NCBI RefSeq assembly: GCF_002261335.1
Contig: NZ_NEVL01000001.1
Coordinates: forward strand, 992,001 to 1,056,000
Reading direction: 5' to 3'
Origin: Bordetella genomosp. 1
Lineage (GTDB): Bacteria > Pseudomonadota > Gammaproteobacteria > Burkholderiales > Burkholderiaceae_B
Length of the DNA: 64,000 nucleotides
The stretch's first letter is position 1. Each line of letters starts with the position of its first letter. Made by a program: the position numbers and the translations under genes. Of this stretch, positions 28,098-47,941 are shown piece after piece. The notes under the pieces are model-generated. The model was not told the DNA's origin and ran no database searches. It worked only from the letters and a program-made list of their open reading frames with translations.

Positions 28098-28125
28098 GGC
28101 CGGGGCCCGCGCGGCGGCCTCAGGC
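28092..28125. terminator. Hairpin between convergent glycosyltransferase and livF genes
   Basis: GCCTGAGGCC (28092-28101) and GGCCTCAGGC (28116-28125) form a perfect 10-bp stem with a 14-base GC-rich loop, spanning the stop of the plus-strand gene and the start of the C-terminal codons of the minus-strand gene. There is no T-run, so it is probably a Rho-aided or collision-type shared terminator. Confidence 0.45.
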
Positions 28126-28857
28126 CGCGTGCGCGTGCCCCAGGCCCAGGTACACCTCCACCACGCGCGGATCGCGCGCCAGTTCGGCCGCGGGCCCCGA
28201 GATCGTGACCTTGCCCATTTCGAGCACGTAGGCGTGGTCGGCCACCTGCAGCGCGGCGCGCGCATTCTGTTCGATCAGCAGGATCGACACGCCGCGGCGG
28301 CGCAGCTCGGCCACGATCAGGAACACCTCGCGCACGATGCGCGGCGCCAGCCCGAGGCTGGGCTCGTCGAGCATGAGCAGGCGCGGCTTGGCCATGAGGG
28401 CGCGGCCCACCGCCAGCATCTGGCGCTCGCCGCCGGAGAGCGTGCCGGCGAGCTGGGCGCGCCGCTCGCGCAGGCGCGGAAACAGCTCATAGACCTCCGC
28501 GATGCATTCCTGCTGGTCGCGCAGACCCATGCGATAGCGGTGGAAGCCGCCCAGCATCAGGTTGTCTTCCACGCTCATTTCGGCAAACAGCTCGCGCTTC
28601 TCCGGCACCAGGTTCATGCCGGCCGCGACCATGTCCTCGACCTCGGCGTGCGCGTGCGCGGCGCCGTTGAAGCGGATCTCGCCGCGCGAGGGCAGCACGC
28701 CCATGATGGCCGACAGCAGCGTGGTCTTGCCCGCGCCGTTGGGGCCGATCACGGTCACGATGCGGCCTTCGCCCACTTCCAGGTCGACGCCGCAGACGGC
28801 CTCGATCTTGTCGTAGGCCACATGCAGGTCGCGGACTTGCAGCAGCGGGGCGCTCAT
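28120..28857 (-). CDS. Liv-type ABC importer ATP-binding protein (LivF)
   Basis: One of the two ATPases of a branched-chain-amino-acid-type (HAAT) importer. The 245-residue protein has Walker A GPNGAGKTTLLSAIMG (about residues 38-46), signature LSGGERQMLAVGRALM, Walker B LLMLDEPSLGLAPRI and H-loop region LLIEQNARAAL, all LivF-like. It is the last gene of the 14-gene catabolic operon; its ATG overlaps the stop of the LivM-LivG fusion gene by 4 bases. Given the operon's content, the importer probably carries the aromatic substrate (indole-3-acetate or a relative) and not leucine. Confidence 0.93.
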   Translation of the reverse strand: MSAPLLQVRDLHVAYDKIEAVCGVDLEVGEGRIVTVIGPNGAGKTTLLSAIMGVLPSRGEIRFNGAAHAHAEVEDMVAAGMNLVPEKRELFAEMSVEDNLMLGGFHRYRMGLRDQQECIAEVYELFPRLRERRAQLAGTLSGGERQMLAVGRALMAKPRLLMLDEPSLGLAPRIVREVFLIVAELRRRGVSILLIEQNARAALQVADHAYVLEMGKVTISGPAAELARDPRVVEVYLGLGHAHAA

Positions 28858-30674
28858 GCCTTCACCTCCATATCGATGCCGTTCTCGACGCCGCCCAGAT
28901 AGGCCTCCAGCACCGCCGGGTCGCGCTGGACCTCGGCCGGCAGGCCTTCGGCGATCTTCTGGCCGAAGTCCATCACCACCACGCGGTCGGCCAGGCCCAT
29001 CACGAATTCCATGTCGTGCTCCACCAGCAGGATCGCCATGCCTTCGCCGCGCAGGCGGTCGAGCAGCGCGGCGAGCTCGCGCTTCTCCTGGTAGCGCAGG
29101 CCCGCGGCGGGTTCGTCGAGCAGCAGCAGGCAGGGGTCGGCGGCCAGGGCACGCGCGATCTCCAGGATGCGCTGCTGGCCGAGCGCGAGCGAGCCCGCGG
29201 CATCGAGCAGGTGCGGACCCAGGCCGACGCGCTCGATCTGGCGCGCCGCCTCCGCCAGCAGGCGGTCCTCCTCGGCGCGATCGAGCCGCCAGGCGGCGCG
29301 CAACACGCCGCTGTGGCCGCGCAGGTGCGCGCCGATGGCGACGTTCTCGAGCGCGCTCATGCGCTTCATCAGCTTCACGTGCTGGAACGTGCGCGACAGG
29401 CCCATGCGGGCGATGGCGCGGGCGCCGACGCCGGCCACCTCGCGGCCCAGGAAGGTCACGCTGCCGGAGGTGGGCGTGTCCACGCCGGAGAGCTGGTTGA
29501 ACATGGTGCTCTTGCCCGCGCCGTTGGGCCCGATCAGCGCCAGCACTTCGCCGGCGCGGATCTCCAGGTTCATCGCGTTGTTCGCCACCAGGCCGCCGAA
29601 GCGGCGGGTCACGTCGCGCGCCACCAGCACCACCTCGCCGCGCGGCGGCATCTCGCGCCGCGGCAGGGGAGCCGCGCCGGTGTCGATGCGGCGCGCGGCC
29701 TGCCTTACCGGCACCAGCCGCGCCAGCGCCGGCCAGATGCCGCCGCGCCAGCGGTGCAGCAGCAGCACCATGCCGAAGCCGAACACGATCACCTCGAAGT
29801 TGCCGGTCTGGCCGAGCAGCCGGGGCAGCCAGTCCTGCAGCCATTGCTTGAGCACGGTGAACACGCCCGCGCCGACCAGCGCGCCCCAGACGCTGCTGGC
29901 GCCGCCGATCACGGTCATGAACAGGTATTCGATGCCCATCTGCAGGCCGAACGGGTTCGGGTTCACGAAGCGCTGCATGTGGGCATAGAGCCAGCCGGAG
30001 GCGCAGGCCTGCAGCGCGGCGATGATGAAGATCACCATGCGCGCGCGTGCCGTGTCCACGCCCATCGACTCGGCCATCACGCGCCCGCCCTTGAGCGCGC
30101 GGATGGCGCGGCCCTCGCGCGAGTCCAGCAGGTTGCGGGTGGTCCAGATGCCGATCAGCAGGAAGGCCCAGATCAGGTAATAGATCTGGCCGCCCTGCGT
30201 GAGCGCCTTGCCGAACACCGGGATCGCCGGGATGTCGGTCAGGCCGGTGTGGCCGCCCAGGCCCTCGACCGAGCCGAACGCGAAGTACAGGCTCAGGCCC
30301 CATGCGATCGTGCCCAGGGGCAGGAAGTGGCCCGACAGGCGCAGCGTGAGCGCGCCCAGCAGCCAGGCCACGGCCAGCGTCAGCAGCAGGCCGGCCGCCA
30401 GCGCGAGCCAGGGCGAGGCGCCCAGCCAGGCAAGGGCGGCAGGCAGCGTGTCGGCGCGGCTGGTCAGCACCGCGGTGGTGTAGGCGCCCAGGCCCACGAA
30501 CGCGGCCTGGCCGAAGCTGGTCAGGCCGCCGACGCCGGTGAGCAGCACCAGGCCGATGGCCACCAGCGCGTACAGGCCGATGTAGTTGAGCAGGGTGACG
30601 TAGAACGCCGGCAGCCCGAGCGGGGCCAGCGCCAGCAGCACCAGGAAGACGGCGAGAAGGCGCGGCGGCGTCAT
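28854..30674 (-). CDS. LivM-LivG fusion: ABC importer permease joined to ATP-binding domain
   Basis: A 606-residue single protein. The N-terminal half (about residues 1-320) is a LivM-type permease with 8-10 hydrophobic segments ([40 protein letters not shown]). The C-terminal half is a LivG-type ATPase with Walker [17 protein letters not shown] at about 397, a [16 protein letters not shown] signature and Walker [12 protein letters not shown]. In most organisms these are two proteins; fused versions occur in Burkholderiales. The fusion is clean, with no internal stop. Overlaps of 4 bases join it to the LivH and LivF genes. Confidence 0.93.
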
Positions 30675-31717
30675 GCTTCGTCCTCCTCTTCTTCGACCGT
30701 GTGGCTCTTGAGCGAGCGCCACAGCAGCACGGGAATGATCAGCGTGAAAACAATGATCTCCTTGTAGGCGCTGGCCCAGAATGCCGAGAACGCCTCGATC
30801 AGGCCGACCAGCACCGCGCCGGCCGCGGCCACCGGATAGCTCACCAGGCCGCCGATGATGGCGCCGACGAAGCCCTTGAGGCTGACCAGGAAGCCCGAGT
30901 CGAAATACATGGTGGTGATGGGCGCGATCAGGATGCCCGAGACCGTGCCGATCAGGCCGGCCAGCAGGAAGGTGATGCGGCCGGCGAACACCGGCGAGAT
31001 GCCCATCAGGCGCGCGCCGGCGCGGTTGAACGCCGCGGCGCGCAGCGCCTTGCCGTACATGGTGCGCTCGAAGAACTGATACAGCACGAGGATCAGCACC
31101 AGGGATACCGCCAGCACCCACAGTGCCTGGCTGTTGACGTTCATCGGCCCCAGTGCGAACTGCGCGTCGGAGAACGGCCGCGTGCGGGCGCCCTCCGCGC
31201 CGAACGCCAGCAGGCCCAGGCCGACCAGCGCCAGGTGCACCGCCACCGACACGATCAGCAGCACCAGCGTGGAGGCGCCGGCGATGGGCTGGTAGAACAG
31301 GCGGTAGAGCTGCGGACCGAGCGGCACCACGATGGCCAGCGTGAGCAGGGCCTGCAGCGCCATCGGCAGCTCGGCCAGCGGCAGGGCATGGACCAGGCCG
31401 GCCACGACGAAGGGATAGACCAGGCGCGCGATCCAGCGCCACCCGGGCCGCGGACGGCCGTAGCGGCGCCGCTGCGCCAGCAGGTCGGCCAGCGCCTCGG
31501 CCACGGCGAACGCCACCACCAGCCAGACCAGCAGCACGGGCTTGCCGGCCTGCACGGCGGCCATGGTGAGGGCGCCGAAGGCGACGAACTCGCCCTGCGG
31601 GATGAACAGCACCCGCGTGACGGTGAAGACGAGCAGGATGGCCAGGGCCAGCAGCGCGTAGATCGCGCCGTTGGTCAGGCCGTCCTGCCCCAGGATCAGG
31701 GCTATCTGAGCATTCAT
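30671..31717 (-). CDS. Liv-type ABC importer permease (LivH)
   Basis: An inner-membrane channel subunit, 348 residues against the usual 290-310. It opens with [20 protein letters not shown] and [20 protein letters not shown], which are LivH marks, and contains the later [20 protein letters not shown] and [20 protein letters not shown]. The extra length is mainly a loop with two added hydrophobic segments after TM3 (about residues 75-145) and an acidic C-terminus (EEEEDEA). It is paired with the LivM-LivG fusion downstream and the binding protein 24 bases upstream. Confidence 0.92.
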
Positions 31718-31741
31718 GCGTCGTGGTTCCGGCCCGGCTGC

Positions 31742-32890
31742 TTACTTGACCAGCGTCCAGTTGCCGTCACGCACGGTGATCAGCTCGCGGCCGCGTTCGT
31801 CGAAGCCGCTGTGGTCGGCCGGCGTCATGTTGTAGACGCCCTGCGTGCCCACCAGCTCCTTGGTCTGCTCCAGCGCATCGCGCAGCGCGGAACGGAATTC
31901 CTTGGTGCCCGGCTTGCCGGCCTTCTCGGCCAGCGGCACGGCCTTCTCGAGCAGCAGGCCGGCGTCGTAGACGTTGGCGCCGAAGGTGGCGGGCACCGAG
32001 CCGTGCAGCTTCTGGTAGGCGGCGATGTAGTCGGAGGCGACCTTCTTCGACGGGTTGCTGTCGGGGATCTCGGGCAGCACCAGCATCAGGCTGGCCGCGA
32101 GAATGGTGCCCTCGACCTTCTTGCCGCCGAGCTTGATGAAGTCGGGCAGCGCCGCGCCGTGGGTCTGGTAGAACTTGCCCTTGTAGCCCTGGTCCACCAG
32201 CGTGGTCTGCGGCAGCACGCTGGCGGCGCCGGGCGCGGCGACCAGCACCGCGTCGGGCTTGGCCGCGAGGATCTTGAGCGCCTGGCCGGTGACCGAGCTG
32301 TCGAAGCGCAGGTAGCGTTCGTTGGCGGCGATCCTGATGCCCTTCTCGGCGGCCATGGCCGAGAACACCTTGTACCAGTTCTCGCCGTAGGGATCGTTCA
32401 GGCCGATGAAGCCGACGGTCTTCACGCCGGTCTTGGCCATGTGGTCGACCAGCGCGCGGGCGATGATGTCGTCGTTCTGCGTGGTCTTGAACACCCACTT
32501 CTTCTGGTCGTTCATCGGCAGCACCACCGCCGCGGTGCCGACCGGCGCGAGCATCGGCACGCCGGCCTCGGCCGCGAACTGGATCACGCCCATGGCGTTG
32601 GGCGAGCCCGAGGGGCCGATCAGCGCGTCGACGTTCTGTTCGGAGATCAGCTTCTTGAAGGCCGTGACCGACTGGGTCGAGTCGCTGGCGTCGTCGAGCG
32701 AGATGTATTCGACGGCGAGGTCGCCGATCTTCTTCGGCAACAGCGGCACCGAATTCTTCTGCGGGATGCCGACCAGGGCGGTCGGGCCGGTGGACGAGGT
32801 GACGACGCCGACCTTGACCTGCGCCAGGGCGGGGAAGGTCAGCAGGGCGGCGACGGCCGCGGCCGCCAGGGAGAGCTTGTTCGACGACAT
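31742..32890 (-). CDS. Periplasmic substrate-binding protein of the Liv-type importer
   Basis: A type I periplasmic binding protein (382 residues) with a Sec signal peptide (LSLAAAAVAALLTFPALA, cleavage after about residue 23) followed by VKVGVVTSSTGPTALVGIPQ. The middle contains DALIGPSGSPNAMGVIQFAA and VGFIGLNDPYGENWYK, typical of LivK/aromatic-acid receptors. The ATG at 32890 has GGAGG seven bases upstream. It lies in the catabolic operon beyond the SDR gene (103-base gap), so an aromatic ligand such as indole-3-acetate is likely. Binding specificity cannot be read from the sequence. Confidence 0.92.
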   Translation of the reverse strand: MSSNKLSLAAAAVAALLTFPALAQVKVGVVTSSTGPTALVGIPQKNSVPLLPKKIGDLAVEYISLDDASDSTQSVTAFKKLISEQNVDALIGPSGSPNAMGVIQFAAEAGVPMLAPVGTAAVVLPMNDQKKWVFKTTQNDDIIARALVDHMAKTGVKTVGFIGLNDPYGENWYKVFSAMAAEKGIRIAANERYLRFDSSVTGQALKILAAKPDAVLVAAPGAASVLPQTTLVDQGYKGKFYQTHGAALPDFIKLGGKKVEGTILAASLMLVLPEIPDSNPSKKVASDYIAAYQKLHGSVPATFGANVYDAGLLLEKAVPLAEKAGKPGTKEFRSALRDALEQTKELVGTQGVYNMTPADHSGFDERGRELITVRDGNWTLVK

Positions 32891-32993
32891 GGCAATTCCT
32901 CCGTGCTTTGGAGAGAGTGGTTGCTGCTCGGATTGCGGCGTGGCCGACGGCCCGCCGCGTTTCATGGCACTGCGTTTGTTGTTGTGCTGCCGG

Positions 32994-33722
32994 TCAGATG
33001 GTGATCGAGCCCACGCTCGCGCCGCCACAGACATACAGCGTCTGGCCGGTGACGAAGCTGTTGGCGCGATCGGAGAAGAACATGACGGCACGCGCGACGT
33101 CGTCGGCGCGGCCGATGCGCTTGACCGGGATGCTGTTGGCCAGCGCCCGTTCGCGCTCGCTGCCCGCATCGATCACCTCGTAGAACATGTCGGTCTGGAT
33201 CGGGCCCGGCGCCACCACGTTGACCGTGATGCCGCTGGGCGCCAGCTCCAGCGCCCAGGTGCGCGCCATGCCGATCATGCCGGCCTTGGTGGCCGAGTAG
33301 GCGGTGCGCGTGGGCAGGCCGAGCGCGCCGCGCGACGACAGCAGCACGATGCGGCCGAGGCGCCGTTCCTGCATGCCGGGCAGCACCGCCTGCACCAGCG
33401 CGATGGCCGCGCCCAGGTGGATCTGCGTCAGGCCCTGCAGCTCTTCCTGCTTCACCTGCGGCAGCAGATTGGGCCAGATCACGCCGGCGTTGTGGATCAC
33501 GTGGCTCACCGGATGCTGCGCGGCGATCTCGGCCGCGGCCTGCGCGGTCGCGTCCGCGTCGAGCAGGTCGACCTGCACGTGGCGCAGCCGCGCATGGGAC
33601 AGCTCGCCGGTGCGGCGCGCCAGCGAGATCACCTCGTAGCCGGCGTCGAGCATGCTGCGGCAGATCTCGGCGCCGATGCCGGCGCTGCCGCCGGTGACGA
33701 TCGCGACATTCTGGTCGGACAT
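32994..33722 (-). CDS. Short-chain dehydrogenase/reductase in the catabolic operon
   Basis: A classical SDR of 242 residues with the NAD(P) motif VTGGSAGIGAEICRSMLDAG (TGGxxGIG at about residues 10-17), NNAG-like HNAGVIWPN, and the catalytic Ser and YxxxK (IVLLSSRGALGLPTRTAYSA, then TKAG). All catalytic residues are present. In an indole-3-acetate route it could oxidise dioxindole to isatin or act on a CoA intermediate, but the reaction is not determined. It lies 30 bases after the cyclase gene. Confidence 0.88.
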   Translation of the reverse strand: MSDQNVAIVTGGSAGIGAEICRSMLDAGYEVISLARRTGELSHARLRHVQVDLLDADATAQAAAEIAAQHPVSHVIHNAGVIWPNLLPQVKQEELQGLTQIHLGAAIALVQAVLPGMQERRLGRIVLLSSRGALGLPTRTAYSATKAGMIGMARTWALELAPSGITVNVVAPGPIQTDMFYEVIDAGSERERALANSIPVKRIGRADDVARAVMFFSDRANSFVTGQTLYVCGGASVGSITI

Positions 33723-33752
33723 GGATTCCCCTTTTTTATGTGGCCGCGCGGC

Positions 33753-34535
33753 TCAGGCCGGCGTCATGGCGAGCACGCGCAGCGGGCTGCCCGAGCCGTT
33801 GCGGATCTTCAGCGGCGCGGAGAAGATCACCGCGCCCTTGGGCGGCAGCTGGTCCAGGTTGGTCAGGCACTGCAGGCCGTAGCGGTTGTTGCCGTGCATG
33901 AAGTAGTGGCAGGGGTAGGGCGGGTCCAGGTGGGCGGCCTGGCCGGCGTCGGTGCCGACCGATTCGGTGCCGAAGCCGTGCACGTCGCGCTCCTTGACCA
34001 GCCACGGCACCACCTCGGCATCGGGTCCGGGCGAGTGCGCGCCGTCGGCCTGCATGTTGAGGTAGTCGGCCGGCTTGGCGCGCTTGGACCAGTCGGTGCG
34101 CATCAGCACCCAGGCGCGCGCCGGGATCTCGCCGTGTTCGGCCTCCCAGCGCTTGACGAAGTCGATGGTGAGCAGGAAGTCGGGGTTGTCGCGCGACTCG
34201 CGCGAGCAGTCGATCACGCAGGCGTTGGCCACGAAGGCCTCCACCGGAATGGTGTCCACCGTGTTGTCGGGCTGGTCCTTGCCGCTGATCCAGTGCGCCG
34301 GCGCGTCGAAGTGGGTGCCGGTGTGTTCGGAGCAGGAGAAGTTGTTCCAGTACCAGGCCGGGCCGCGCTCGTCGTAGCGCGAGATCTCCTCGATGCGGAA
34401 CGGCCAGGCCTGGCCGAACTCCGGCGGCAGCTGGATGGTGGGGAATTCGGGCGTGAGCGTTTCGGTCAGGTCGACCACGCGGATCCGGCCGGCGGCCAGG
34501 TCGGTCACGAAACGGGCGAGGGTGTCAGCACTCAA
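33753..34535 (-). CDS. Cyclase-family metal hydrolase (kynurenine formamidase / isatin hydrolase-like)
   Basis: The 260-residue protein contains the family metal-binding motif HTGTHFDAPAH (residues 71-81), which binds Mn or Zn through His and Asp side chains, plus DLTETLTPEFPTIQLPPEFG near the start. Members include kynurenine formamidase and isatin hydrolase, which opens isatin to isatinate. The second reaction is a good fit to this operon. The start is a TTG at 34535 with a strong AAGGAG six bases upstream, the best-supported start in the frame. It lies 30 bases after the DUF35-SDR gene. Confidence 0.85.
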   Translation of the reverse strand: MSADTLARFVTDLAAGRIRVVDLTETLTPEFPTIQLPPEFGQAWPFRIEEISRYDERGPAWYWNNFSCSEHTGTHFDAPAHWISGKDQPDNTVDTIPVEAFVANACVIDCSRESRDNPDFLLTIDFVKRWEAEHGEIPARAWVLMRTDWSKRAKPADYLNMQADGAHSPGPDAEVVPWLVKERDVHGFGTESVGTDAGQAAHLDPPYPCHYFMHGNNRYGLQCLTNLDQLPPKGAVIFSAPLKIRNGSGSPLRVLAMTPA

Positions 34536-34565
34536 TTCAGGCTCCTTGTCGAGGGCGCGGCGGGC

Positions 34566-35807
34566 TCAGGCGCCCAGCTCGCGTTCCAGTCCCTTGGGGT
34601 TGTCGGCCAGGCGCGCGAGGAATTCCTCGGCCACGTCGCCCACGTAGACGTCTTCGATGCCGGCCTCCAGCGCGCGCACGATGGCGCTGGCGATGGCCTT
34701 GGGCGCCACGCGCGGCGGCGGCGTGCGCTGCTCCCATTCGTGGTCCACCGGACCGGGGAAGACATTGACCACGCGCACGCCGGCCGGGCGGAATTCGGCG
34801 CGCAGGCATTGCGCCAGCGACAGCGCGGCCGCCTTGCTGGCCGACCATACGCCGCGGCCCGGCAGGTTCATCTGGGCATAGATGCTCAGCACATTGACCC
34901 AGGCGCAGGCGCTGTTCACGCCATCCGAGGCGCGGGCGGCCATGCCGGGGCCGAAGGCCTGCGCCAGGCGCATCAGGCCCAGGCAGTTCACGTCGAGCGC
35001 GTCGCGGGCGCGGTTGACGTCGCGCGCGCCCAGCAGGCCGCCCTCGCGTTCGTAGTCGGCGGTGTTGATCAGGATGTCGACCTTGCCGCCGATCGAGCCG
35101 GCCGCGCGGTCGATCGCGTCGGTGTCGGTCACGTCGAGCGGCAGCGTGCTGACGCGTTCGTCCTGGCGCAGCCGCTCGAAGGCCGGATCCTGGCGCCAGG
35201 CCTGCGGGTCGCCCACGAACACGTGGGTGGCGCCGGCCTGCAGCAGCGCGGGCACCAGCGCCTGGCCCACGGCCGACTTGCCGTCGGTCACCAGCACGCG
35301 GCGCAGCTTCGGGGTGCACGAGGTTTCGCGCAGCGTTTTGTCGTCTTGCATGTCGGGCGTGTCCTCGGGGGGCAGGGCGATCAGCACGGCCTGGCCGCTG
35401 CGATCGAGTTTGAGGGCAAGTCGCACCGGACCGCCATCGGGGCAATCCTGGTGCAGGTGGGCCACCACGCTGGGGCCGGCGTTCATCACCACGGTGCCGA
35501 CCTGCCAGGGCAGGCGCTCGCGGAAATAGAGATCGTTGCTGTGCTGCAGGGTGGTGCGCGCGATCAGCGTGCCCAGCGGCGATACCTCGCGCCAGGGCAG
35601 CTCGTGATGCAGGCAGGCGCCGCAGACCTCGCGCGGCGGGTACTGCACCGTGCCGCAGGCCGCGCACACCTGCATGCGGAAGCGGCCCAGCGCGGCGGCG
35701 GCCGTGAGGCCGAGCGCGGCGCGGCTGCGGGCGCCGGGCGGCAGGGTGGGCTGGCGCGTGCGCGCCACGGGATCCTTGCGCGGCGGGCGCTTGAGCGGTT
35801 CGGTCAT
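34566..35807 (-). CDS. DUF35 (OB-fold/Zn-ribbon) fused to an SDR domain with an altered active site
   Basis: A 413-residue two-domain protein. Residues 30-150 are a DUF35 acyl-CoA-associated domain: zinc ribbon with Cys48, Cys51, Cys62 and Cys65, then an OB fold (PLGTLIARTTLQHSNDLYFR). Residues 168-400 are an SDR domain in which the glycine motif is degenerate (VTDGKSAVGQAL) and the catalytic YxxxK tyrosine is Trp (VWSASK, Trp321, Lys325); Ser308 remains. The SDR half is therefore probably not an ordinary dehydrogenase. DUF35 proteins partner thiolase-fold proteins, and the gene upstream encodes one with a 4-base overlap. Confidence 0.88.
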   Translation of the reverse strand: MTEPLKRPPRKDPVARTRQPTLPPGARSRAALGLTAAAALGRFRMQVCAACGTVQYPPREVCGACLHHELPWREVSPLGTLIARTTLQHSNDLYFRERLPWQVGTVVMNAGPSVVAHLHQDCPDGGPVRLALKLDRSGQAVLIALPPEDTPDMQDDKTLRETSCTPKLRRVLVTDGKSAVGQALVPALLQAGATHVFVGDPQAWRQDPAFERLRQDERVSTLPLDVTDTDAIDRAAGSIGGKVDILINTADYEREGGLLGARDVNRARDALDVNCLGLMRLAQAFGPGMAARASDGVNSACAWVNVLSIYAQMNLPGRGVWSASKAAALSLAQCLRAEFRPAGVRVVNVFPGPVDHEWEQRTPPPRVAPKAIASAIVRALEAGIEDVYVGDVAEEFLARLADNPKGLERELGA

Positions 35808-38601: not shown

Positions 38602-38611
38602 GCCGCGCTCC

Positions 38612-39106
38612 TCACATGAACAGTTGAATGTTGCCGAACGCGGCGTCGCAATTGAGCAGGTCCACGCGCTTGAGCCGGATGCGCAGCGCGCCGTCCTGCT
38701 CCACCAGGTGATGGGTGGTCCAGCCCGCGTACAGGGTCTGCTCGTCCTGGCGCGCCTCGACGTAATGGAACGCGGTGCGCACCACGTAGCGGCCCGCCTC
38801 GGGCGCGTGTTCGGGGTGGCCGCGCTCGATCGTGGGCGCCTGCAGCAGGTGGTGCGAGCGGCTGCGCGGCTGCTGCGAGAACGTGCGATTGCCCGCCAGC
38901 CGTTCCACCCGCACCTTCAGCAGCAGCAGGTCTTCGTACATCAGCGAGGCGTGCAGCCGCGCGTCCTGCTGGTCGTGCGCCAGCGGCATCCAGTAATGGC
39001 CGTCGTCGGTGTAGAGCGCGAGCCAGTCGTCGAAGCGCTGCTCGTCGAGCATGCGCGCCTCGGCATAGACGAAGTCGGTCAGGCGTTGGTCGATCGGCGC
39101 GCTCAT
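38612..39106 (-). CDS. iadE: Rieske-type ring-hydroxylating dioxygenase, small (beta) subunit
   Basis: A 164-residue protein of the SnoaL-like beta-subunit family that packs against the catalytic alpha subunit. It begins RLTDFVYAEARMLDEQRFDD and WLALYTDDGHYWMPLAHDQQ, and has LKVRVERLAGNRTFSQQPRS in the middle, all typical of the family. Its ATG overlaps the alpha-subunit stop (ATGA), consistent with stoichiometric synthesis. The name follows the Variovorax iad locus, by content and order; the assignment is by memory of that locus and not by a search. Confidence 0.88.
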   Translation of the reverse strand: MSAPIDQRLTDFVYAEARMLDEQRFDDWLALYTDDGHYWMPLAHDQQDARLHASLMYEDLLLLKVRVERLAGNRTFSQQPRSRSHHLLQAPTIERGHPEHAPEAGRYVVRTAFHYVEARQDEQTLYAGWTTHHLVEQDGALRIRLKRVDLLNCDAAFGNIQLFM

Positions 39107-40434
39107 GCCCGGGCCTCCATGCTGTCGGTGAGGTAGCGGGCCCATGCGCGATACTGGTTGCGCATCTGCCATTCGTTGGTGCCGTTGGTCACGACGTTGC
39201 GCTGCTCCGCCTCGCCGGGCGTGTACAGCCGCGCCACGTTGACCCAGTCGTGCGCGCGCGAGGCCAGGCCCTGCTGGGCGCGCTCGTACATCTCCAGGTC
39301 GTCGTGGCCCACCACCGAGGTCGGCGCGTTGATCAGGCGGTTGTACATGAGCGTGCGTTCGAGCAGCAGGTCTGGCGCGCCCACCAGGCGGAACGTCCAC
39401 GACTCGACCAGGGTGCGGTCGGCGGCGAGCGGCTTGAAGATGCGCAGGGTCTGGATCGGGCCCTTCACCATGATGTTGGGAAAGTACACGGTGTTGTGCC
39501 GCACCTCGCCCAGGATCGCGTGCGCGCGCTCCTCGCCGTAGGCGGCCACCATGCTGTCCCAGTAGCCGGGGATCGTCGAGTAGGCGGCGTGGATCGAATC
39601 GGACACGCCGGTGTGACCGTGGCCGTTCTCCCACACGCGGATGCCCATGTTCTCGAAGAACTCATAGGGCGAGATGAAGGGCGCGAACAGCTCCACCGCC
39701 ATGGGCTTGGGCGTGCCTTCGGGCGCGGCCTCCCACACCTTCACCGCGGTGCCGGCCGACGATTCGTGCGCCACCATCGGGTGACACGTGTCGGTCTGGT
39801 TGTCGACCAGCATCTTCCAGTTGCAGCGGTGCACGTAGCGGAACACGCCGCCGGCCACCTCGAGCCTGCCCTCGGGCGAGCGGTCCACCATGTTGTCCAG
39901 CGTGCTGAGCGATTCGCCGAAGAACTCGGCGAAGCCCTGGCCCTCCGGGTTCAGGCGGCAGAAGATGAAGCCGCGATAGTTTTCCATCGCGCCCACCGCG
40001 GCCATGCCGGTGCTGGCCTCGCACGCGGACAGCACCTCGGGGTCGTAGCCTTTCTTGAGCGGGATCGACAGCAGGCTGCCGTCGGTCTTGAAGGTCCAGG
40101 CGTGATACGGGCAGCGGAAGAACTTGCCGGTATTGCCGCAGGCATCGCCCGCCACCATCGTGCCCTTGTGCGGGCAGCGGTTGTACAGCACCCGCACGCT
40201 CTTGTCGCTGTGGCGCACCATCACCACGGGCTGCAGGCCCACGGTGGTCGTGATGTAGTCGCCGCTGTTCGGCACCTGCGACTCATGGCCCACGTAGACC
40301 CAGGTCGCGGCGTAGAGATGCTCCATCTCCAGGTCGAACAGCTCGGGGCTGGTGAACAGATCCTTGTGCACCTCGGTCTCGCGCACCAGGGCGCGGACGG
40401 CAGCGGGATTGTCGCGGTATTGCGGATTCGCCAT
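39103..40434 (-). CDS. iadD: Rieske-type ring-hydroxylating dioxygenase, large (alpha) subunit
   Basis: The catalytic subunit (443 residues). Rieske [2Fe-2S] ligands are Cys87 and His89 (NRCPHKGTMVAGD) and Cys108 and His111 (FFRCPYHAWTF). The mononuclear iron site is in DNQTDTCHPMVAHE, with His218 and His223 and an Asp bridging the subunits. It would oxygenate the aromatic substrate; in the iad locus this is indole-3-acetate to dioxindole-3-acetate. The reductase gene is 8 bases upstream, and the beta gene overlaps downstream. No separate ferredoxin gene is present, so electrons probably come straight from the reductase, which has its own [2Fe-2S] centre. Confidence 0.9.
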   Translation of the reverse strand: MANPQYRDNPAAVRALVRETEVHKDLFTSPELFDLEMEHLYAATWVYVGHESQVPNSGDYITTTVGLQPVVMVRHSDKSVRVLYNRCPHKGTMVAGDACGNTGKFFRCPYHAWTFKTDGSLLSIPLKKGYDPEVLSACEASTGMAAVGAMENYRGFIFCRLNPEGQGFAEFFGESLSTLDNMVDRSPEGRLEVAGGVFRYVHRCNWKMLVDNQTDTCHPMVAHESSAGTAVKVWEAAPEGTPKPMAVELFAPFISPYEFFENMGIRVWENGHGHTGVSDSIHAAYSTIPGYWDSMVAAYGEERAHAILGEVRHNTVYFPNIMVKGPIQTLRIFKPLAADRTLVESWTFRLVGAPDLLLERTLMYNRLINAPTSVVGHDDLEMYERAQQGLASRAHDWVNVARLYTPGEAEQRNVVTNGTNEWQMRNQYRAWARYLTDSMEARA

Positions 40435-40442
40435 GGTTGCCT

Positions 40443-41417
40443 CTACAGGTCCAGCACCAGCCGCGCCGACTTGCAGCGCGAGATGCACATCTGGATGACC
40501 GTGCCGCTGGCCTTCTCGGCGGCCGACAGGTAGTAATCGCGGTGATCCGGCTCGCCCTCGAGCACGGTGGCCTGGCACACGCCGCACTCGCCGCGCTTGC
40601 AGTCGTAGAGCGGATCGCAGCCCGCCTCTTCGAGCACGTCGACGATGGTCTTGTCGGCCGGCACGGTCAGCACCTTGCCCGACTGGCGCAGCTCCACCTC
40701 GAAGGGCTGGTCGCCGGCCTGGGCCGCCGCGGTGGTGAACAGCTCGAAATGCACGTGGGCCGGCGGCCAGCCGCGTTCGGCCGCCTTCGCGATCACCGCG
40801 TCGATGAGGCCCTTCGGGCCGCACACGTACAGGTGCTGGTGCGGCGTGCTCGCCGCCAGCAGGGCGTCCAGGTCGAAGGCGCCGCCCTCGTCGTCGGCAT
40901 ACAGGCGCAGCGCGCTGCCGGCCAGCGTCTCGAGCTCCTGCGCGAACGCCAGCTGGCTGCGGCTGCGGCCGGTGTAGTGCAGCGAGTAGGGCCGGCCGGC
41001 CGCGGCCAGCGCCGTCGCCATGGCCGCGATCGGCGTGATGCCGATGCCGCCCGCGATCAGGATCACGTCGGGCTCGTCGGCCGGGGCCTCGTGCAGCGGA
41101 AAGTCGTTCTTCGGGCCCTCGGCCTCGAGCTCGTCGCCCACGGCCAGCGCGTGCATGTGGCGCGAGCCGCCCTGGCTGTTGTCTTCGAGGCGGATGCCGA
41201 GGCGGTAGCGCGCCGGCGTGGCGAAGTCGGCCGCCGCGCCCGCGGTCGCGATCAGCGAGTAGCAGCGCGGTTCGGACAGCCCCGGGACGCGGATCTTGAG
41301 GTGGGCGCCGGGCCCGAAGGCGGGCAGCGGGCCGCCGTCGGCGCGCTCCAGACAGACCGAGCGGATCAAGGGCGATTCTTGGCGGATGTCGCGTACGACG
41401 AGTTTCAGCGATGCCAC
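40443..41417 (-). CDS. iadC: PDR/VanB-type reductase of the dioxygenase system
   Basis: The electron-transfer partner: 324 residues with an FNR-like flavin domain (RCYS at 51-54), an NADH-binding motif (GGIGITP at 123-129, YVCGPKGLID at about 197) and a C-terminal plant-type [2Fe-2S] domain whose ligands are Cys273, Cys278, Cys281 and Cys311. This is the single-protein phthalate-dioxygenase-reductase architecture, which makes a separate ferredoxin unnecessary. The start is a GTG at 41417. It lies between iorB (21 bases) and iadD (8 bases). Assignment to iadC rests on order and family. Confidence 0.88.
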   Translation of the reverse strand: MASLKLVVRDIRQESPLIRSVCLERADGGPLPAFGPGAHLKIRVPGLSEPRCYSLIATAGAAADFATPARYRLGIRLEDNSQGGSRHMHALAVGDELEAEGPKNDFPLHEAPADEPDVILIAGGIGITPIAAMATALAAAGRPYSLHYTGRSRSQLAFAQELETLAGSALRLYADDEGGAFDLDALLAASTPHQHLYVCGPKGLIDAVIAKAAERGWPPAHVHFELFTTAAAQAGDQPFEVELRQSGKVLTVPADKTIVDVLEEAGCDPLYDCKRGECGVCQATVLEGEPDHRDYYLSAAEKASGTVIQMCISRCKSARLVLDL

Positions 41418-41438
41418 GATGGATCTCGATGTAGGGAG

Positions 41439-42983
41439 TCAGGCAGGGACGTGTTCGGCGGCCTGGCGCTCGAGCGGCGCGCAGCTGGCCTGCGACAGCG
41501 CCAGCTCGCGCAATTCGCGCAGGCGGGTCGCCGCGCCGGGCTGGCCGTTGAGCCGGCCGGCCGCGTCGATCAGGGTGCGGTACTTGCTTTCGCCGCGCGC
41601 GTGCGTGTCGCTGTAGCCCTTCACCAGGCGTCGGCACAGCGTGGTCTCGACCGCGAGCGCGTAATCGGTGGGCGCGATGCGCGCGATCAGGTCCAGCCAG
41701 GTGCGCAGGGCTTCGGCCTCGACCTGGTGCCGCAGCAGGCCGCGGCGGAAGCGCCGCATGCCGGCCAGGCCGTAGAAGGCCAGAAAGCCGCCCAGCGTGC
41801 CGAGCCGCATGCGCTTGCCGCGCGCCAGCCGCTTCTGCACGAAGCCGCCGAAGGCGCGCGAGCCCTCGAGCCAGCGGCCGAGGCGCACGGGCAGGGTGCC
41901 GCAGATCTCTTCGAGGCGCGGATGCACGAATTCGGTGGTGTAGACGAGCTGGTCGGGCCTGGCGCCGACCTCGTCGCGCACGCGGGCGTCGCGGCTGCCG
42001 CGGGTCTTCAGGTCGGCCACGCGGATCACGTCGTCGTAGGCCATCGCCACGGCGAGGTGGCGCGCGGCCGCACAGGTGAGCGCCCAGCCGGCGCCGTCGC
42101 CGCCATGCACGCGATCGAGCGCGGCCAGGCGGTCCATGTGGTCGAGGTACTCGGCGGCATAGGCCGGGTCCTGGTAGTCGATCAGGCGCCGCAGCGCCGC
42201 CACCATCAGGGGCTGCGCGGCGCCGGGAAAGTCGCGCCGCACGCGGTCGAGCAGGGCCTGCGTCGCGGCGGTGGCGGCGCGCTCGGGCACTTCGGGCAGG
42301 TGGTCGTGCGCCACGATCGGGTCGGGCTGGGCCGGCGCCTGGGCGGCGGCCGCATAGCCGGCGCCGAAGGCGCGCAGGCTGGCCTGCACGCCCACGCCGG
42401 CGCGTTCGATGGTGGCCTCGAAGGCCTCGCGCGCGAAGGGTAGGGCGCCGCTGCCGGCCACGGCGCCGAACAGGCTGGCGCTGATCACGCTGCCGTTGCG
42501 GTCGGCCAGGTCCTGCAGGTCGAAGCAGAGGAAGCGGCGCGCGCTGTCGCGGCCGGCCTCGAGCACCTTGTTCGGATCGGCGATGCCGTTGCCCGGGGCC
42601 GACTTCTCGCTCACCGCATAGCTGCGGTGCGACGAGCTGATGAGCGTGGTGCGGTCGGGCGTGACGAGACCGCGCGTGATCGCTCGGCCGCCTTCCATCA
42701 GCTCGGCCGCCACCACGAGGTCGACGTCGCCCGGCGTGGGCATCAGGGCCAGCGCGGGCGGGCGGCCGGCGCGCGCGACCTCGGTCTCGGGCAGCAGCTC
42801 GAGGTAATAGATGGTGGCGCCGGTGCGCTGCGCCACGCCCGGCACGGAGGTGGTCTGGGCCCACCAGCCGGCGTGTTCGGCCAGCTCGACGATCCAGTCG
42901 GCGAGCACGCCGCCGCCCTGGCCGCCCATGGCCAGGATGGCGATCTTGATCGGCTGGACGCGGGGGGATTCGGTTTGGCTCAT
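41439..42983 (-). CDS. iorB: Indolepyruvate oxidoreductase beta-subunit-like protein with DUF6537-type extension
   Basis: A 514-residue protein. The first about 200 residues are the gamma/beta domain of 2-oxoacid:acceptor oxidoreductases (IAILAMGGQGGGVLADWIVE, then TSVPGVAQRTGATIYYLELL); the rest is the long C-terminal extension seen in proteobacterial IorB proteins, rich in Arg and Ala with no motif I can name. It would act with IorA to decarboxylate an aryl 2-oxoacid oxidatively to its CoA ester. It lies 7 bases after iorA in the operon. No ferredoxin gene is adjacent. Confidence 0.88.
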   Translation of the reverse strand: MSQTESPRVQPIKIAILAMGGQGGGVLADWIVELAEHAGWWAQTTSVPGVAQRTGATIYYLELLPETEVARAGRPPALALMPTPGDVDLVVAAELMEGGRAITRGLVTPDRTTLISSSHRSYAVSEKSAPGNGIADPNKVLEAGRDSARRFLCFDLQDLADRNGSVISASLFGAVAGSGALPFAREAFEATIERAGVGVQASLRAFGAGYAAAAQAPAQPDPIVAHDHLPEVPERAATAATQALLDRVRRDFPGAAQPLMVAALRRLIDYQDPAYAAEYLDHMDRLAALDRVHGGDGAGWALTCAAARHLAVAMAYDDVIRVADLKTRGSRDARVRDEVGARPDQLVYTTEFVHPRLEEICGTLPVRLGRWLEGSRAFGGFVQKRLARGKRMRLGTLGGFLAFYGLAGMRRFRRGLLRHQVEAEALRTWLDLIARIAPTDYALAVETTLCRRLVKGYSDTHARGESKYRTLIDAAGRLNGQPGAATRLRELRELALSQASCAPLERQAAEHVPA

Positions 42984-42990
42984 GATGCGC

Positions 42991-45213
42991 TCACAGGGCG
43001 TAGCGGGTCAGGCGGGCGGCGCGGCGGCGCTGCAGGAAGCCGATCACGCCGCGGCGCACGCGCGCCAGGAAGCGGTCGCCGGCCGTGGGGTTGTGCACGA
43101 TGTCGGCGCGGTAGAACGACGGGCACAGCACGGCGGCGTGCGCCACCTCGCCGCAGTTGCCGCAGCCCACGCAGCTGCTCTCCACGTGTGCGACCGGATC
43201 GGGCTTGAGCGGGTCGCCGCTGTCCTTGACCGACAGCGACGGACAGCCCGAGAGCCGGATACAGGCGTGGTCGCCGGTGCAGACGTCGGGGTCGACCCCG
43301 AAGCGCTCCTTCACCATGCGCTTGCCTTCCTTCACGGCGCGGTTGAATTGCGGCTTGATGCGGCGCTGCTTGTTCAGCATGCATTCCGACTGCGCGATGA
43401 TGACCTTGGGGCCGCCCTCGCTGGTGGTGAGCGCCTCTTCGAGCACGGCGCGCACGCGCGCCACGTCGTAGGTATGGTCGATCGTGCGCACCCACTTCAC
43501 GCCCACGCCGCGCACGGCGGCGTCGATGGGGTTGTTGGTGGAGCGGTCGGGATTCTCGGCGCGCGACGACAGGATGTCCTGCCCGCCGGTGGCCGAGGAA
43601 TAGAAGTTGTCGACGATGACGATCACGCCGTCGTACTTGTTGAACACCGCGTTGCCGATGCCCGAGGCCAGGCCGTTGTGCCAGAAGCCGCCGTCGCCCA
43701 TGATCGAGATCGGCCGCTTGGCCGCCGGCACGTTGAACGCGGCCGCGCTGGACGCGCCCAGGCCGTAGCCCATGGTGGTGGCGCCCAGGTTGAAGGGCGG
43801 CAGGATCGAGAACAAATGGCAGCCGATGTCACAGGAGATGTGGTGCTGGCCGAGTTTTTCCTGCGCCAGCGTCAGCGCCGAGAAGATCGGCCGCTCCGGA
43901 CAGCCGGTGCAGAAGCCCGCGGGCCGCGGCGGCACCACGGCGGCCAGCTCGGCCGCGTGGCGCATGAAGGTGATCGGCTTTTCCTCGGCGCGCGGCGCCT
44001 CGCGACGGCGCGCCACCTCCGTGATCTCCAGCTGGCGTTCGCCCTGGGCGTCGGCGGCGGCCGGCGCGTGCGTGGCCAGCATCTCGGGTGCCTGCGTCTG
44101 CAGGAAGCGGCGGATGCCGTCGCGCATCACCTGCGTGGTGTACTCGCCCGCCATCGGCAGCACGTCCTTGCCGGACAGCTGCGTGCTCACGCCGGCGCGG
44201 CGCAGCACGGCGTGCAGGTTCTGTTCGATGTAGTCGGGCTGGCCCTCTTCGAGCAGCAGCACGGCGCGCTTGCCGCGGCAGAAGTCCAGCACCTCGTCTT
44301 CGATCACCGGATACGTGACGTTCATCACGTAGATCGGGATGCGGCTGTTGCCGAAGTGGTCGGCCAGGCCCTGCAGCTGCAGCGCGCGGATCACGCCGTT
44401 GTAGAGGCCGCCCTGGATGATGAGGCCGATGTCGTCGCGCTCGCCCTCGAAGAATTCGTTGAGCTTGCGTTCCTTGATGAACGAGATGGCGGCCGGCCAG
44501 CGCTCCTTGATCTTTTCCTGCTCGTGCAGGAACGAGGCCGGCGGCAGCACGATGCGCGAGGTGTCGCGCTGCGGCTGTTCCAGGGCCTGCGCCAGCGAAT
44601 AGGCCGGCCGTTGATTGTCCTTGGCGATGAAGCGGCCGTGCACGTGGCAGCCGCGGATGCGCAGCTGCAGCATGACCGGGGTCTTGCTGGCCTCCGACAG
44701 CGAGAAGCCGTCTTCGACCGCCTTCACCATGCTCTCGAGGTTGGGACGCGGGTCCAGCAGCCAGATCTGCGACTTCATCGCGAAGGCGTGCGAACGCTCC
44801 TGCATGATGGAGGAGCCCTCGCCGTAGTCTTCGCCCACGATGACCAGCGCGCCGCCGGTCACGCCGCCCGAGGCCAGGTTGGCGAGGGCGTCGGAGGCGA
44901 CGTTGGTGCCCACCGTGGATTTCCAGGTGACGGCGCCGCGGATCGGGTACATCACGGAGGCCGCCAGCGTGGCGGCGGCGGTGGCTTCGGAGGCGCTGGT
45001 CTCGAAGTGCACGCCGAGCTCCTGCAGGATCTCGTTGGCATCGGCCAGCACGTCCATCAGGTGCGAGATCGGCGAGCCCTGATAGCCGGCGACGTATCCG
45101 ACGCCCGACTGCAGCAACGCCTTGGTGACCGCAAGAATGCCCTCGCCGCGGAACTCTTCGCCCGCGCCGATGCGCAACTGCTGGACTTCTTTCTTGAACG
45201 ACCTTTCCGCCAT
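42991..45213 (-). CDS. iorA: Indolepyruvate ferredoxin oxidoreductase alpha subunit
   Basis: A 740-residue TPP enzyme. The N-terminal pyrimidine-binding half has GYVAGYQGSPISHLMDVLAD; the central TPP/Mg site is IMGDGGFWHNGLASG with VIVDN about 26 residues later; the C-terminus carries two ferredoxin-like 4Fe-4S sites (GDHACIRLSGCPS and SCVGCGNCGEVAHAAVLCPS). It oxidatively decarboxylates aryl-pyruvates or aryl-glyoxylates to CoA thioesters. It is the first gene of the 14-gene operon. In this context isatinate (2-aminophenylglyoxylate) is my favoured substrate, an inference. A consensus promoter lies about 90 bases upstream. Confidence 0.92.
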   Translation of the reverse strand: MAERSFKKEVQQLRIGAGEEFRGEGILAVTKALLQSGVGYVAGYQGSPISHLMDVLADANEILQELGVHFETSASEATAAATLAASVMYPIRGAVTWKSTVGTNVASDALANLASGGVTGGALVIVGEDYGEGSSIMQERSHAFAMKSQIWLLDPRPNLESMVKAVEDGFSLSEASKTPVMLQLRIRGCHVHGRFIAKDNQRPAYSLAQALEQPQRDTSRIVLPPASFLHEQEKIKERWPAAISFIKERKLNEFFEGERDDIGLIIQGGLYNGVIRALQLQGLADHFGNSRIPIYVMNVTYPVIEDEVLDFCRGKRAVLLLEEGQPDYIEQNLHAVLRRAGVSTQLSGKDVLPMAGEYTTQVMRDGIRRFLQTQAPEMLATHAPAAADAQGERQLEITEVARRREAPRAEEKPITFMRHAAELAAVVPPRPAGFCTGCPERPIFSALTLAQEKLGQHHISCDIGCHLFSILPPFNLGATTMGYGLGASSAAAFNVPAAKRPISIMGDGGFWHNGLASGIGNAVFNKYDGVIVIVDNFYSSATGGQDILSSRAENPDRSTNNPIDAAVRGVGVKWVRTIDHTYDVARVRAVLEEALTTSEGGPKVIIAQSECMLNKQRRIKPQFNRAVKEGKRMVKERFGVDPDVCTGDHACIRLSGCPSLSVKDSGDPLKPDPVAHVESSCVGCGNCGEVAHAAVLCPSFYRADIVHNPTAGDRFLARVRRGVIGFLQRRRAARLTRYAL

Positions 45214-45301
45214 CGAGAAACCCCTTGAGTACAGGCCTTGGGCCTGTCATGGGATGTTGCGTGGCAACACGCACATCCTGTTTTTCTGGTGCCGCGAAAA
45301 T

Positions 45302-45330
45302 ACTTTAGAAGTCAACCTTTTAGCTGTCAA
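45302..45330 (-). promoter_or_regulatory. Sigma70 promoter of the ior/dioxygenase operon
   Basis: On the minus strand a perfect TTGACA (45330-45325) is followed by a 17-base spacer and TAAAGT (45307-45302, four of six). Transcription would start near 45295, giving a leader of about 80 bases before iorA. It sits in an AT-rich island unlike the surrounding DNA. Confidence 0.7.
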
Positions 45331-45338
45331 TAAAAAAT

Positions 45339-45350
45339 ATGAATTTTCAT
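45339..45350. promoter_or_regulatory. Candidate MarR operator: inverted repeat upstream of the ior promoter
   Basis: ATGAA-TT-TTCAT is a perfect short palindrome just upstream of the -35 box of the operon, within the AT-rich 45214-45617 gap shared with the divergent MarR gene. MarR dimers bind palindromes of about this size. The region also holds two GTCAA half-sites (45311-45330) that could be part of a second site. Binding is inferred. Confidence 0.45.
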
Positions 45351-45617
45351 TGAAAGAAAAAAATATCACGCAAAAACAAGGGTGTATATACTCGTTGTCC
45401 AGCGATGCAAGCGCCGTCCGCGTGCCTGAAACTGGTGCAAAAACGGCTTTGATTTGAGGGCAAACCCTATGCTGCGCAACAGCATCGGGATGCGCTTTGG
45501 TGCATGCGTGGCAGAGAGCAGCACCGCGCTGGTGCGCAGGGTGTTGCAGCGCATGAATCGCGTTCCGCGCGCCGCTGTTTGTCCGGCGCAACGATGAAGC
45601 ACACGGACCCAGGGACC

Positions 45618-46136
45618 ATGAAGAAGAACATTGCCTTCGATAGCGCGCCCGCCACCGACGCGGGCCGCGCGCCGCGCTTCGTCGACAACTACCTGGCCTA
45701 TCTGCTGGCGCAGGCCAGTCATCGCATCTCGGCCGAGTTTCACCTGCAGGCGCGCGCCGCCGGGCTCTCGGTGACCGAGTGGCGGGTGCTCGCCAGCCTG
45801 GAAGGCAGCCCCGGCGAAACCATCGGCGCGCTGGCGGCCGCGGCCCTGACCAAGCAGCCCACCCTGAGCAAGGTGGTGCAGCGCATGGAGGCCGAGGGCC
45901 TGCTCGCGCGCACCGGCGTGCGCAGCGACCGGCGCCAGACCCGCGTGCGCATCACGTCCAAGGGGCATGCGCTGGTCGCGCGCCTGTGCGACGCGGCGCT
46001 GGCGCACCAGGAAGCCGTGTTGCGGCCCTTCGGCCACGAGCGCGCGGCGCAGCTGATGGACATGTTGCGTGCGCTGATGGGCCTGCCGCTGGGCGCGGCC
46101 GAGGCGCTCGAGCCGGAAGACGACGCGGAAGACTGA
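45618..46136 (+). CDS. MarR-family transcriptional regulator of the catabolic operon
   Basis: A winged-helix MarR protein (172 residues from this start): FHLQARAAGLSVTEWRVLAS, then LTKQPTLSKVVQRMEAEGLL (recognition helix region) and RTGVRSDRRQTRVRITSKGH (wing). It is divergent from the operon, as expected for a local repressor released by an aromatic acid. In Variovorax the matching regulators of auxin breakdown are IadR-type MarR proteins that respond to indole-3-acetate. The start could also be the ATG at 45594, eight codons upstream; the one at 45618 has AGGG four bases before it. Confidence 0.9.
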   Translation: MKKNIAFDSAPATDAGRAPRFVDNYLAYLLAQASHRISAEFHLQARAAGLSVTEWRVLASLEGSPGETIGALAAAALTKQPTLSKVVQRMEAEGLLARTGVRSDRRQTRVRITSKGHALVARLCDAALAHQEAVLRPFGHERAAQLMDMLRALMGLPLGAAEALEPEDDAED

Positions 46137-46282
46137 GGGGCTGGGCGGGTGCTCGGCGGGCTGGCGCCGCGGCCGCGGCCCCCGCGCGGACCCGGGCGCG
46201 AGCTGCCAACGGCGGCTACCAGCCCGTCCCTCATTGCACAACATTGAGCTAATAACCGCTCCATATCGGCACAAACCCCTAA

Positions 46283-46311
46283 TTGACGGCGCTGTCGGGG
46301 GTAGGCAATAT
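46283..46311 (+). promoter_or_regulatory. Probable promoter of the peptide ABC importer operon
   Basis: TTGACG (46283-46288) and CAATAT (46306-46311) with a 17-base spacer lie 37 bases before the start of the binding-protein gene. The -35 box is five of six and the -10 four of six. Confidence 0.6.
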
Positions 46312-46347
46312 CCGCCCGTTTTATTCAGATACTTGTCAGGAGCTATG

Positions 46348-47919: not shown

Positions 47920-47941
47920 CCTCCGCGGCTTTCCCTCCCCG

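Follow-up and report, generated by a model that had tools for sequence, protein, structure and literature searches.

A complete iad locus in Bordetella genomosp. 1

The window analysed here is a stretch of 64,000 nucleotides (C3:992001-1056000) of the 5.6 Mb genome of Bordetella genomosp. 1, and its positions 28120-46136 hold iadABCDEFGHIJKLMN on the minus strand (28120-45213) together with a divergent iadR. This is the gene set iadABCDEFGHIJKLMNR published for the degradation of indole-3-acetic acid (IAA), whose names were coined for Achromobacter and then also used in Variovorax (PMC9613470). The locus belongs with the iad loci already published, in their Achromobacter form, and is thus of a known kind, and we hold with high confidence that its substrate is IAA. 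What we infer beyond this, and what is new here, is that IadG would cleave the IAA side chain by aldolase chemistry, that the C-terminal short-chain dehydrogenase/reductase (SDR) domain of its partner IadH would be a passenger, and that IadAB would form a coenzyme A (CoA) ester late in the route.

An earlier note on this DNA had described fourteen genes on one strand and a divergent MarR gene, spaced by 4-base overlaps or gaps of about 100 bases at most. Open frames were found for 15/15 genes at or near the positions it had assigned, with small corrections to the starts of iadG (36970), iadH (35807), iadM (30674) and iadN (28857), and with iadR starting at 45504 or alternatively at 45594. The intergenic distances from iadA to iadN measured 7, 21, 8, -4, 10, -4, -4, 30, 30, 103, 24, -4 and -4 bases. 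The products of iadA to iadE matched the Pfam families TPP_enzyme_C, POR with DUF6537, NAD_binding_1 with Fer2, Rieske with Ring_hydroxyl_A, and Ring_hydroxyl_B, respectively; those of iadF to iadJ matched AMP-binding, Thiolase_C_1, zf-ChsH2/OB_ChsH2_C with adh_short, Cyclase and SDR; and those of iadK to iadN and iadR matched Peripla_BP_6, BPD_transp_2, BPD_transp_2 with ABC_tran, ABC_tran and MarR.

One scan of genome contigs with an IadD alignment yielded at least 80 named loci, iadN being left out of the gene-order scoring in the fetched loci (flank 10 kb). On one strand, 25 of the 80 named loci listed had genes A to M arranged as in the window, while the remaining listed loci showed shorter runs (partly from early locus ends), with missing genes or another order in some; conservation of the order across 25 listed loci argues that it is not due to chance. 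The Achromobacter iad loci (Nascimento et al. 2021, as cited in PMC9613470) share the gene set of the window and, where the contig reaches, the same order and divergent iadR, with identities of 86-88% for IadD (82% in L048, filed as A. aestuarii, now Schauerella) and 91-95% for IadK; the difference is the host, here a Bordetella. A Variovorax-type locus (L117, whose IadD is 94.3% identical to PDB 9O71) likewise runs R-A-B-C-D-E-F-G-H-I-J-K, and aligned gene by gene with the window it showed 48-69% identity for R and A to J. The likeness to the Variovorax locus drawn in the earlier note holds for gene order; among published loci, that of Achromobacter comes closest.

The oxygenase and the regulator point to IAA

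The first attack on IAA is predicted to be made by the Rieske oxygenase alpha subunit IadD (39103..40434), which was 59.5% identical over 435 residues to IadD of V. paradoxus (PDB 9O71). Nine residues are reported to line the IAA pocket of the latter (N210, L211, H216, H221, F251, H311, K322, R329 and Y362; PMC10374108), and 8/9 are kept in the window (N212, Q213, H218, H223, F253, H313, K324, R331 and Y364), the exception being Leu211 replaced by Gln213. The window's pocket residues, together with D379, were invariant across a 17-row alignment. IadD was also 87% identical to that of Achromobacter sp. Root83 (L044), a locus with the same order from A to M whose host reportedly grows with IAA as its only source of carbon, and an RNA-seq set on IAA is reported for Achromobacter Root170 (PMC11630574). 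The earlier note had held that a low IadD identity, or a place among oxygenases of another known substrate, would speak against IAA; what we found is the identity and pocket just given, and nearest kin in Bordetella and Achromobacter, Root83 included. The beta subunit IadE (38612..39106) had the IadE chain as its best PDB match (7YLS, 8H2T, 9O71; E 1.6e-50), and the flavin/[2Fe-2S] oxygenase reductase IadC (40443..41417) was 53.6% identical to the Variovorax-type IadC. IadJ (32994..33722) is an intact SDR dehydrogenase that kept G11, G15, G17, S130, Y142 and K146 in 74/74 rows and would carry out the second oxidation, to dioxindole-3-acetate, the probable substrate of the AMP-forming CoA ligase IadF (36967..38601). 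The role of IadF (the CoA ligase step) is taken from mutant data of Variovorax, and that of IadJ from the same work (PMC12633357); IadR, IadCDE, IadJ and the step order F, then G/H, then I are already published for that genus.

The MarR-type repressor IadR (45594..46136, plus strand) had MarR_73 as its best PDB match (7KFO, E 5.3e-37). It kept the equivalents of the residues that contact the IAA carboxylate, Ser28, His32 and Arg46, as well as Tyr15 and Trp45, and differed from MarR_73 in Ala18 to Tyr and Val65 to Ala; across 54 loci, the three contacts were conserved in 54/54, 53/54 and 54/54, respectively. MarR_73 of Variovorax is reported to bind a 24 bp site in the iadR-iadA interval. In the window, a palindrome, ATGAAAATTCAT, lies at 45339..45350 (minus strand), upstream of the -35 box of a sigma-70-like iadA promoter, TTGACA-17-TAAAGT (45302..45330, minus strand), which matches 10/12 consensus positions (shuffles, mean 0.2). 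With at most one mismatch, the palindrome was present in 38/48 iadR-iadA intergenic regions (47 loci and the window), compared with 0/960 mononucleotide shuffles, and the ten regions without it include that of the Variovorax-type locus. Both strands of the window being read, it occurred at one single place, with 0.06 expected, and two or more matches arose in 3/100 shuffles. The spacing pattern TTGAC-N(15-20)-TNNANT was likewise detected in 38/48 intergenic regions, in two of which the match differs from the others. We propose the palindrome as a candidate IadR operator of this clade.

The importer weighs on the other side. It comprises the periplasmic binding protein IadK (31742..32890), the LivH-type permease IadL (30671..31717), IadM (28854..30674), a LivM-type permease fused to a LivG-type ATPase, and the LivF-type ATPase IadN (28120..28857), the last three assigned by Pfam. 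IadK was 40.7% identical to IadK2 of the Variovorax-type locus, its best PDB matches were 3SG0 and 4DQD, and it kept 3/8 of the published IadK2 pocket residues (S104, R199, F308), with A, A, L, Y and N at positions 125, 126, 168, 172 and 311 where published IadK2 has T, N, F, W and Y. As a point against IAA, these differences include 3/5 residues whose change most weakened IAA binding; the Variovorax-type K2 of L117 itself has Ala at 125. L117 contains three K-like proteins, and the two that adjoin iadJ are 71.1% identical to each other, which fits the approximately 70% published for IadK2/IadK3. Judged by its pocket, IadK is not of the IadK2 type, and K2, which is reported not to be essential in Variovorax (PMC12633357), is not a defining part of the iad locus.

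These differences, the Gln for Leu211 of IadD in this clade and the two altered indole contacts of IadR would suit an operon for another indole or aryl acid, with IAA just a relative of the true substrate. We regard this as very improbable, given the conserved IadD pocket, the IadR carboxylate contacts and growth on IAA of Root83 with the same gene order (PMC11630574). IAA as the substrate, as the earlier note had inferred, is supported by the identity and pocket of IadD and by this IAA-using relative; since the IadK pocket differs from that of IadK2, the assignment rests on the enzymes and the regulator and not on the importer.

IadG and IadH as a probable aldolase and its DUF35 partner

The earlier note had read iadG (35804..36970) as thiolase-like and iadH (34566..35807) as a DUF35-SDR gene; both families are present, but an aldolase working with a DUF35 partner is the better reading of the pair. 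In IadG, a glycine (G85) occupies the position of the thiolase nucleophile Cys, and a Y281-D-D-Y284 motif follows, both in 74/74 rows. By these residues IadG is no thiolase. Benzoylsuccinyl-CoA and SCP2 thiolases were ruled out as identities, IadG having no Cys and showing Tyr-Asp where 7YVY and 7PXP have His-Asp. Foldseek of the predicted IadG model placed 9MYR (Sal-Shy(DUF35)) first and 6OK1 (Ltp2-ChsH2(DUF35)) second and third, both described as steroid side-chain aldolases (PMC12329534; PDB 9MYR, 6OK1). IadG and IadH resemble these aldolases in a thiolase fold without the Cys nucleophile, in the Tyr of a YDxY/F motif and in the DUF35 partner, and CtSal Gly89, Tyr302, Tyr305, Gln347 and Gln352 map to G85, Y281, Y284, Q326 and Q331 of IadG, none of which varies across the 74 rows. 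The steroid substrate of Ltp2 is a beta-hydroxyacyl-CoA whose tertiary alcohol is at C17, and dioxindole-3-acetyl-CoA, the proposed substrate of IadG, is likewise a beta-hydroxyacyl-CoA with a tertiary alcohol.

Several findings weigh against an aldolase role. Thiolases proper scored nearly equal to the aldolases in the fold comparison. The third residue of the motif, Cys in Sal (the essential Cys304 of CtSal) and His in Ltp2, is Asp283 in IadG (74/74 rows), and neither the oxyanion residue Gln161 nor the backbone residue Gly391 of CtSal is kept, IadG having Pro143 and Met370. At the position of CtSal Gln352 and Ltp2 Tyr344, all 74 rows have Gln331. IadG thus shares with Sal and Ltp2 the Gly-for-Cys thiolase fold and the base Tyr (Sal Tyr302, Ltp2 Tyr294) and lacks the second catalytic residue (Sal Cys304 or Ltp2 Tyr344), so it is not filed as Sal or Ltp2; we suggest only that it would act like both.

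IadH combines a ChsH2-type DUF35 part (zinc ribbon C48, C51, C62, C65 and an OB fold), in place of the DUF35 with MaoC domain of the steroid aldolases, with the fused SDR. The four zinc-ribbon cysteines were present in 65/65 rows, as befits a DUF35 partner. The C-terminal part does not have the motifs of a classical active SDR (TGxxxGxG, YxxxK): in TGxxxGxG the first Gly was Asp in 64/65 rows and Asn in 1/65, the second was kept in 2/65 and the last in 65/65, and YxxxK was found in 3/65, compared with the three Gly and YxxxK in 74/74 rows of IadJ as control. The SDR Tyr position held Trp in 44, Phe in 16 and Tyr in 5 of the 65 rows, and was Phe in the Variovorax-type row. DUF35 stood alone, without the SDR, in 8 loci (Pfam was run on two of these), the loci lacking this domain coming from Alcaligenes, Paenalcaligenes and Schauerella. 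A DUF35-IadJ fusion in Alcaligenes was ruled out, as calling of open reading frames gave two genes. Foldseek of the IadH model listed SDR-fold proteins only among 50 matches and was uninformative on the DUF35 part. The SDR part of IadH thus appears to be a degenerate passenger. As a point to the contrary, its nearest solved relative, 5U4S, also lacks the Tyr (Leu) and was solved with NADP, and the domain may still bind nucleotide.

A different assignment was proposed for Variovorax in a 2025 preprint, in which IadG works as a genuine thiolase and IadH as an alcohol dehydrogenase, removing the side chain reductively to dioxindole (PMC12633357). It would explain why C8H7NO2, with the formula of dioxindole (isatin plus two H), builds up in the iadI mutant as well as in a strain with iadCDEFGH, J and K2, from which F-G-H were read as reductive (PMC12633357), and it accords with the SDR fold at the end of IadH and with the Tyr-less relative solved with NADP. 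The absence of the nucleophile Cys from every IadG row, of the SDR Tyr from 60/65 IadH rows including the Variovorax type, and of the whole SDR from 8 loci makes this assignment unlikely to our mind. Cleavage of dioxindole-3-acetyl-CoA by IadG to isatin and acetyl-CoA is the probable reading; its chief weak point is that C8H7NO2 has to be explained by the assumption that isatin is reduced in a side reaction through other enzymes. An aldolase role for IadG/IadH was not found in the literature searched, which did not cover most subscription journals, so that such a proposal may exist elsewhere.

The cyclase-family product IadI (33753..34535) fits a route through isatin, as the earlier note had seen from its metal motif. 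Its best PDB matches were the isatin hydrolases 5NNA, 5NNB and 5NMP (E 1.5e-117 to 1.4e-115), and HxGTHxDxPxH with GLQC was found in 70/70 rows (69 loci and the window), within the reported isatin hydrolase signature of HxG[T/A]HxDxPxH and GLQC/GLAS (PMC6117287). In these two motifs IadI showed no difference from isatin hydrolase A (IHA; 5NNA, 5NNB, 5NMP), and we assign it to the IHA type.

IadAB and the proposed end of the route

IadA (42991..45213) is the IorA-like alpha subunit of a thiamine pyrophosphate-dependent 2-oxoacid:ferredoxin oxidoreductase (TPP_enzyme_C), and IadB (41439..42983) the beta subunit (POR and DUF6537). The gene families named in the earlier note found Pfam and NCBIfam support, except that IadA scored well under the IorA equivalog cut-off (IOR_alpha; 264 vs 651 bits) and shows just a distant likeness; IadB passed the IorB-family subfamily model NF006179 (692 bits, cut-off 348). 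IadA was 90.0% identical to that of Achromobacter L037, 68.8% to that of the Variovorax-type locus and 64% to an Alcaligenes-type IadA.

In the Alcaligenes-type locus L138, one strand carries iadA (64%), iadB (48%), marR, 4HBT, a flavin adenine dinucleotide/old yellow enzyme (FAD/OYE) hydroxylase, a cupin dioxygenase, FAH, a nitrilase-family gene, iadI, iadC, iadD and iadE, the largest gaps being 232 and 321 bases. The hydroxylase matched PRK08255 (1302 bits, cut-off 1078) and was 91% identical to that of the Alcaligenes locus L083; the cupin dioxygenase is of the gentisate/5-aminosalicylate type, below both cut-offs, the nitrilase-family protein also scored below its cut-off, and the marR and 4HBT calls rest on Pfam matches of the corresponding Paenalcaligenes genes (L079). 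Of the proteins between iadB and iadI of L138 that were scanned, none was a CoA ligase, so an aryl-CoA could come from IadAB. L138:3790-18699 (genome G313, with similar parts in L083 and L079) looks like a possible IAA-to-ring-cleavage block via a 5-hydroxyanthranilate-like intermediate.

That IadAB acts on isatinate to give anthraniloyl-CoA is, in our estimate, evenly balanced. IadAB might instead convert indolepyruvate to indoleacetyl-CoA and feed this into the route, which we consider possible without favouring it: IadB falls within the indolepyruvate oxidoreductase beta family model, and IAA induces iorA 30.7-fold and iorB 7.6-fold in Bradyrhizobium japonicum, which fits any role in the pathway. 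However, the IadA score lies far below the IorA equivalog cut-off, Alcaligenes-type iadAB adjoins genes of families acting on aryl-CoA esters, and induction by IAA suits a step downstream of IAA. Weighing against an essential IadAB, Variovorax is reported to make anthranilate with iadC-K2 alone, without iadAB (PMC12633357).

Elsewhere in the same genome, a cluster at ~C3:633.7-641.5 kb encodes a PRK08255-family hydroxylase (1377 bits), an SDR, an enoyl-CoA hydratase, an acyl-CoA dehydrogenase, 4HBT, a RidA-type protein and a benzoate-CoA-ligase-like protein (360 vs cut-off 375). The FAD/OYE hydroxylase was found in 30/33 genomes and iadG in 18/33, the hydroxylase occurring with or without iadG; its presence in the window's own genome therefore proves nothing, and co-occurrence of hydroxylase and iad was dropped as evidence. 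A Liv-type importer lies ahead of this cluster (~C3:628.7-641.5 kb, L135:2682-15465), the whole resembling a CoA-type route for aminobenzoate or a related aryl acid. There were three Ring_hydroxyl_A matches in the genome, and 0/2 besides IadD passed an anthranilate dioxygenase model.

Distribution and kinship

Bordetella, a genus not mentioned in the iad literature searched, joins the iad carriers: IadD matches reaching 76% identity or more were present in 6/15 same-genus genomes searched, the window's own included, and two of the six were incomplete. The closest IadD among the named matches listed was that of Bordetella genomosp. 5 (94% identity). In a tree of 26 IadD rows and four more distant ones, the window grouped with Bordetella genomosp. 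5 (support 100/99), then with B. pseudohinzii (100/98), and next, with weaker support, with Achromobacter, B. genomosp. 4 and Schauerella. Next to the Variovorax rows, a long branch carries three paralogues (44-47% identity), of which one belongs to the same genome as the window, and an earlier IadD tree had shown an odd grouping with long branches; constraining all IadD rows to one clade gave p-AU 0.288 (approximately unbiased test), so that a single clade is neither rejected nor proved.

Many of the searched relatives had a second IadD-like match, of 42-47% identity. In the window's own genome, a second Rieske oxygenase pair (~C3:642.7-648.6 kb, L121:5749-11572), 46.5% identical to IadD and 40% to IadE, neighbours a binding protein, a dienelactone-hydrolase-type protein, an isochorismatase-type protein and an SDR; the Variovorax-type genome G659 (L116/L117) has, ~10 kb away from iadD, another IadD-like oxygenase that shares 57% identity with V. 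paradoxus IadD. Two loci from genomes of the same phylum carry A, B, C, D, E and J (L118, genome G217), and C, D, E, F and J with A and B on the opposite strand (L119, genome G111); no G, H or I match was observed within the 20 kb taken around either, and other genes may serve the middle steps there. The best IadF match reached just 36-37% in L059, L065, L069, L078, L087, L090 and L094, possibly reflecting a non-orthologous replacement of the CoA ligase. The flanks of the window's locus (46234-48976, 25935-27062 and 27057-28097), judged by eye from translations, appear to encode a peptide-importer-like pair, a LysR-type regulator and a glycosyltransferase-like protein, which look unrelated.

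Proposed route and its significance

In the route we propose, IadR would repress the operon until IAA releases it, and the Liv-type ABC importer IadKLMN would take up an aromatic acid, probably IAA. IadCDE would then oxidise IAA with O2, IadJ would oxidise the product to dioxindole-3-acetate, and IadF would form its CoA ester. Bound to the DUF35 part of IadH, IadG would split dioxindole-3-acetyl-CoA by a retro-aldol reaction into isatin and acetyl-CoA with no redox cofactor, and IadI would hydrolyse isatin to isatinate, thereby pulling the aldol equilibrium forward. As a last step, an oxidative decarboxylation by IadAB, using CoA and ferredoxin, could turn the aryl 2-oxoacid isatinate into anthraniloyl-CoA and CO2, and a CoA-type cluster for aryl acids at another place in the genome could take the anthraniloyl-CoA further. 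As a joint reading, a redox-neutral retro-aldol by IadG and DUF35, a decaying IadH SDR and an IadAB that leads to anthraniloyl-CoA, with some Alcaligenaceae encoding IAA-to-ring-cleavage in one block, seems to us about as probable as its contrary.

In a complex synthetic community, the strains reported to relieve root stunting caused by auxin are those with iad-type loci (PMC9613470), and work is under way to move the pathway into other root bacteria (PMC12633357). Which enzyme performs the side-chain cleavage, and whether the route ends in free anthranilate or in anthraniloyl-CoA, determines the genes that a transfer cassette needs. The comparison presented here converts steps that the PMC12633357 preprint assigned by annotation alone into single-enzyme reactions that can be assayed. 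If true, a DUF35-partnered aldolase of the thiolase fold, known from steroid side chains, would serve auxin catabolism.

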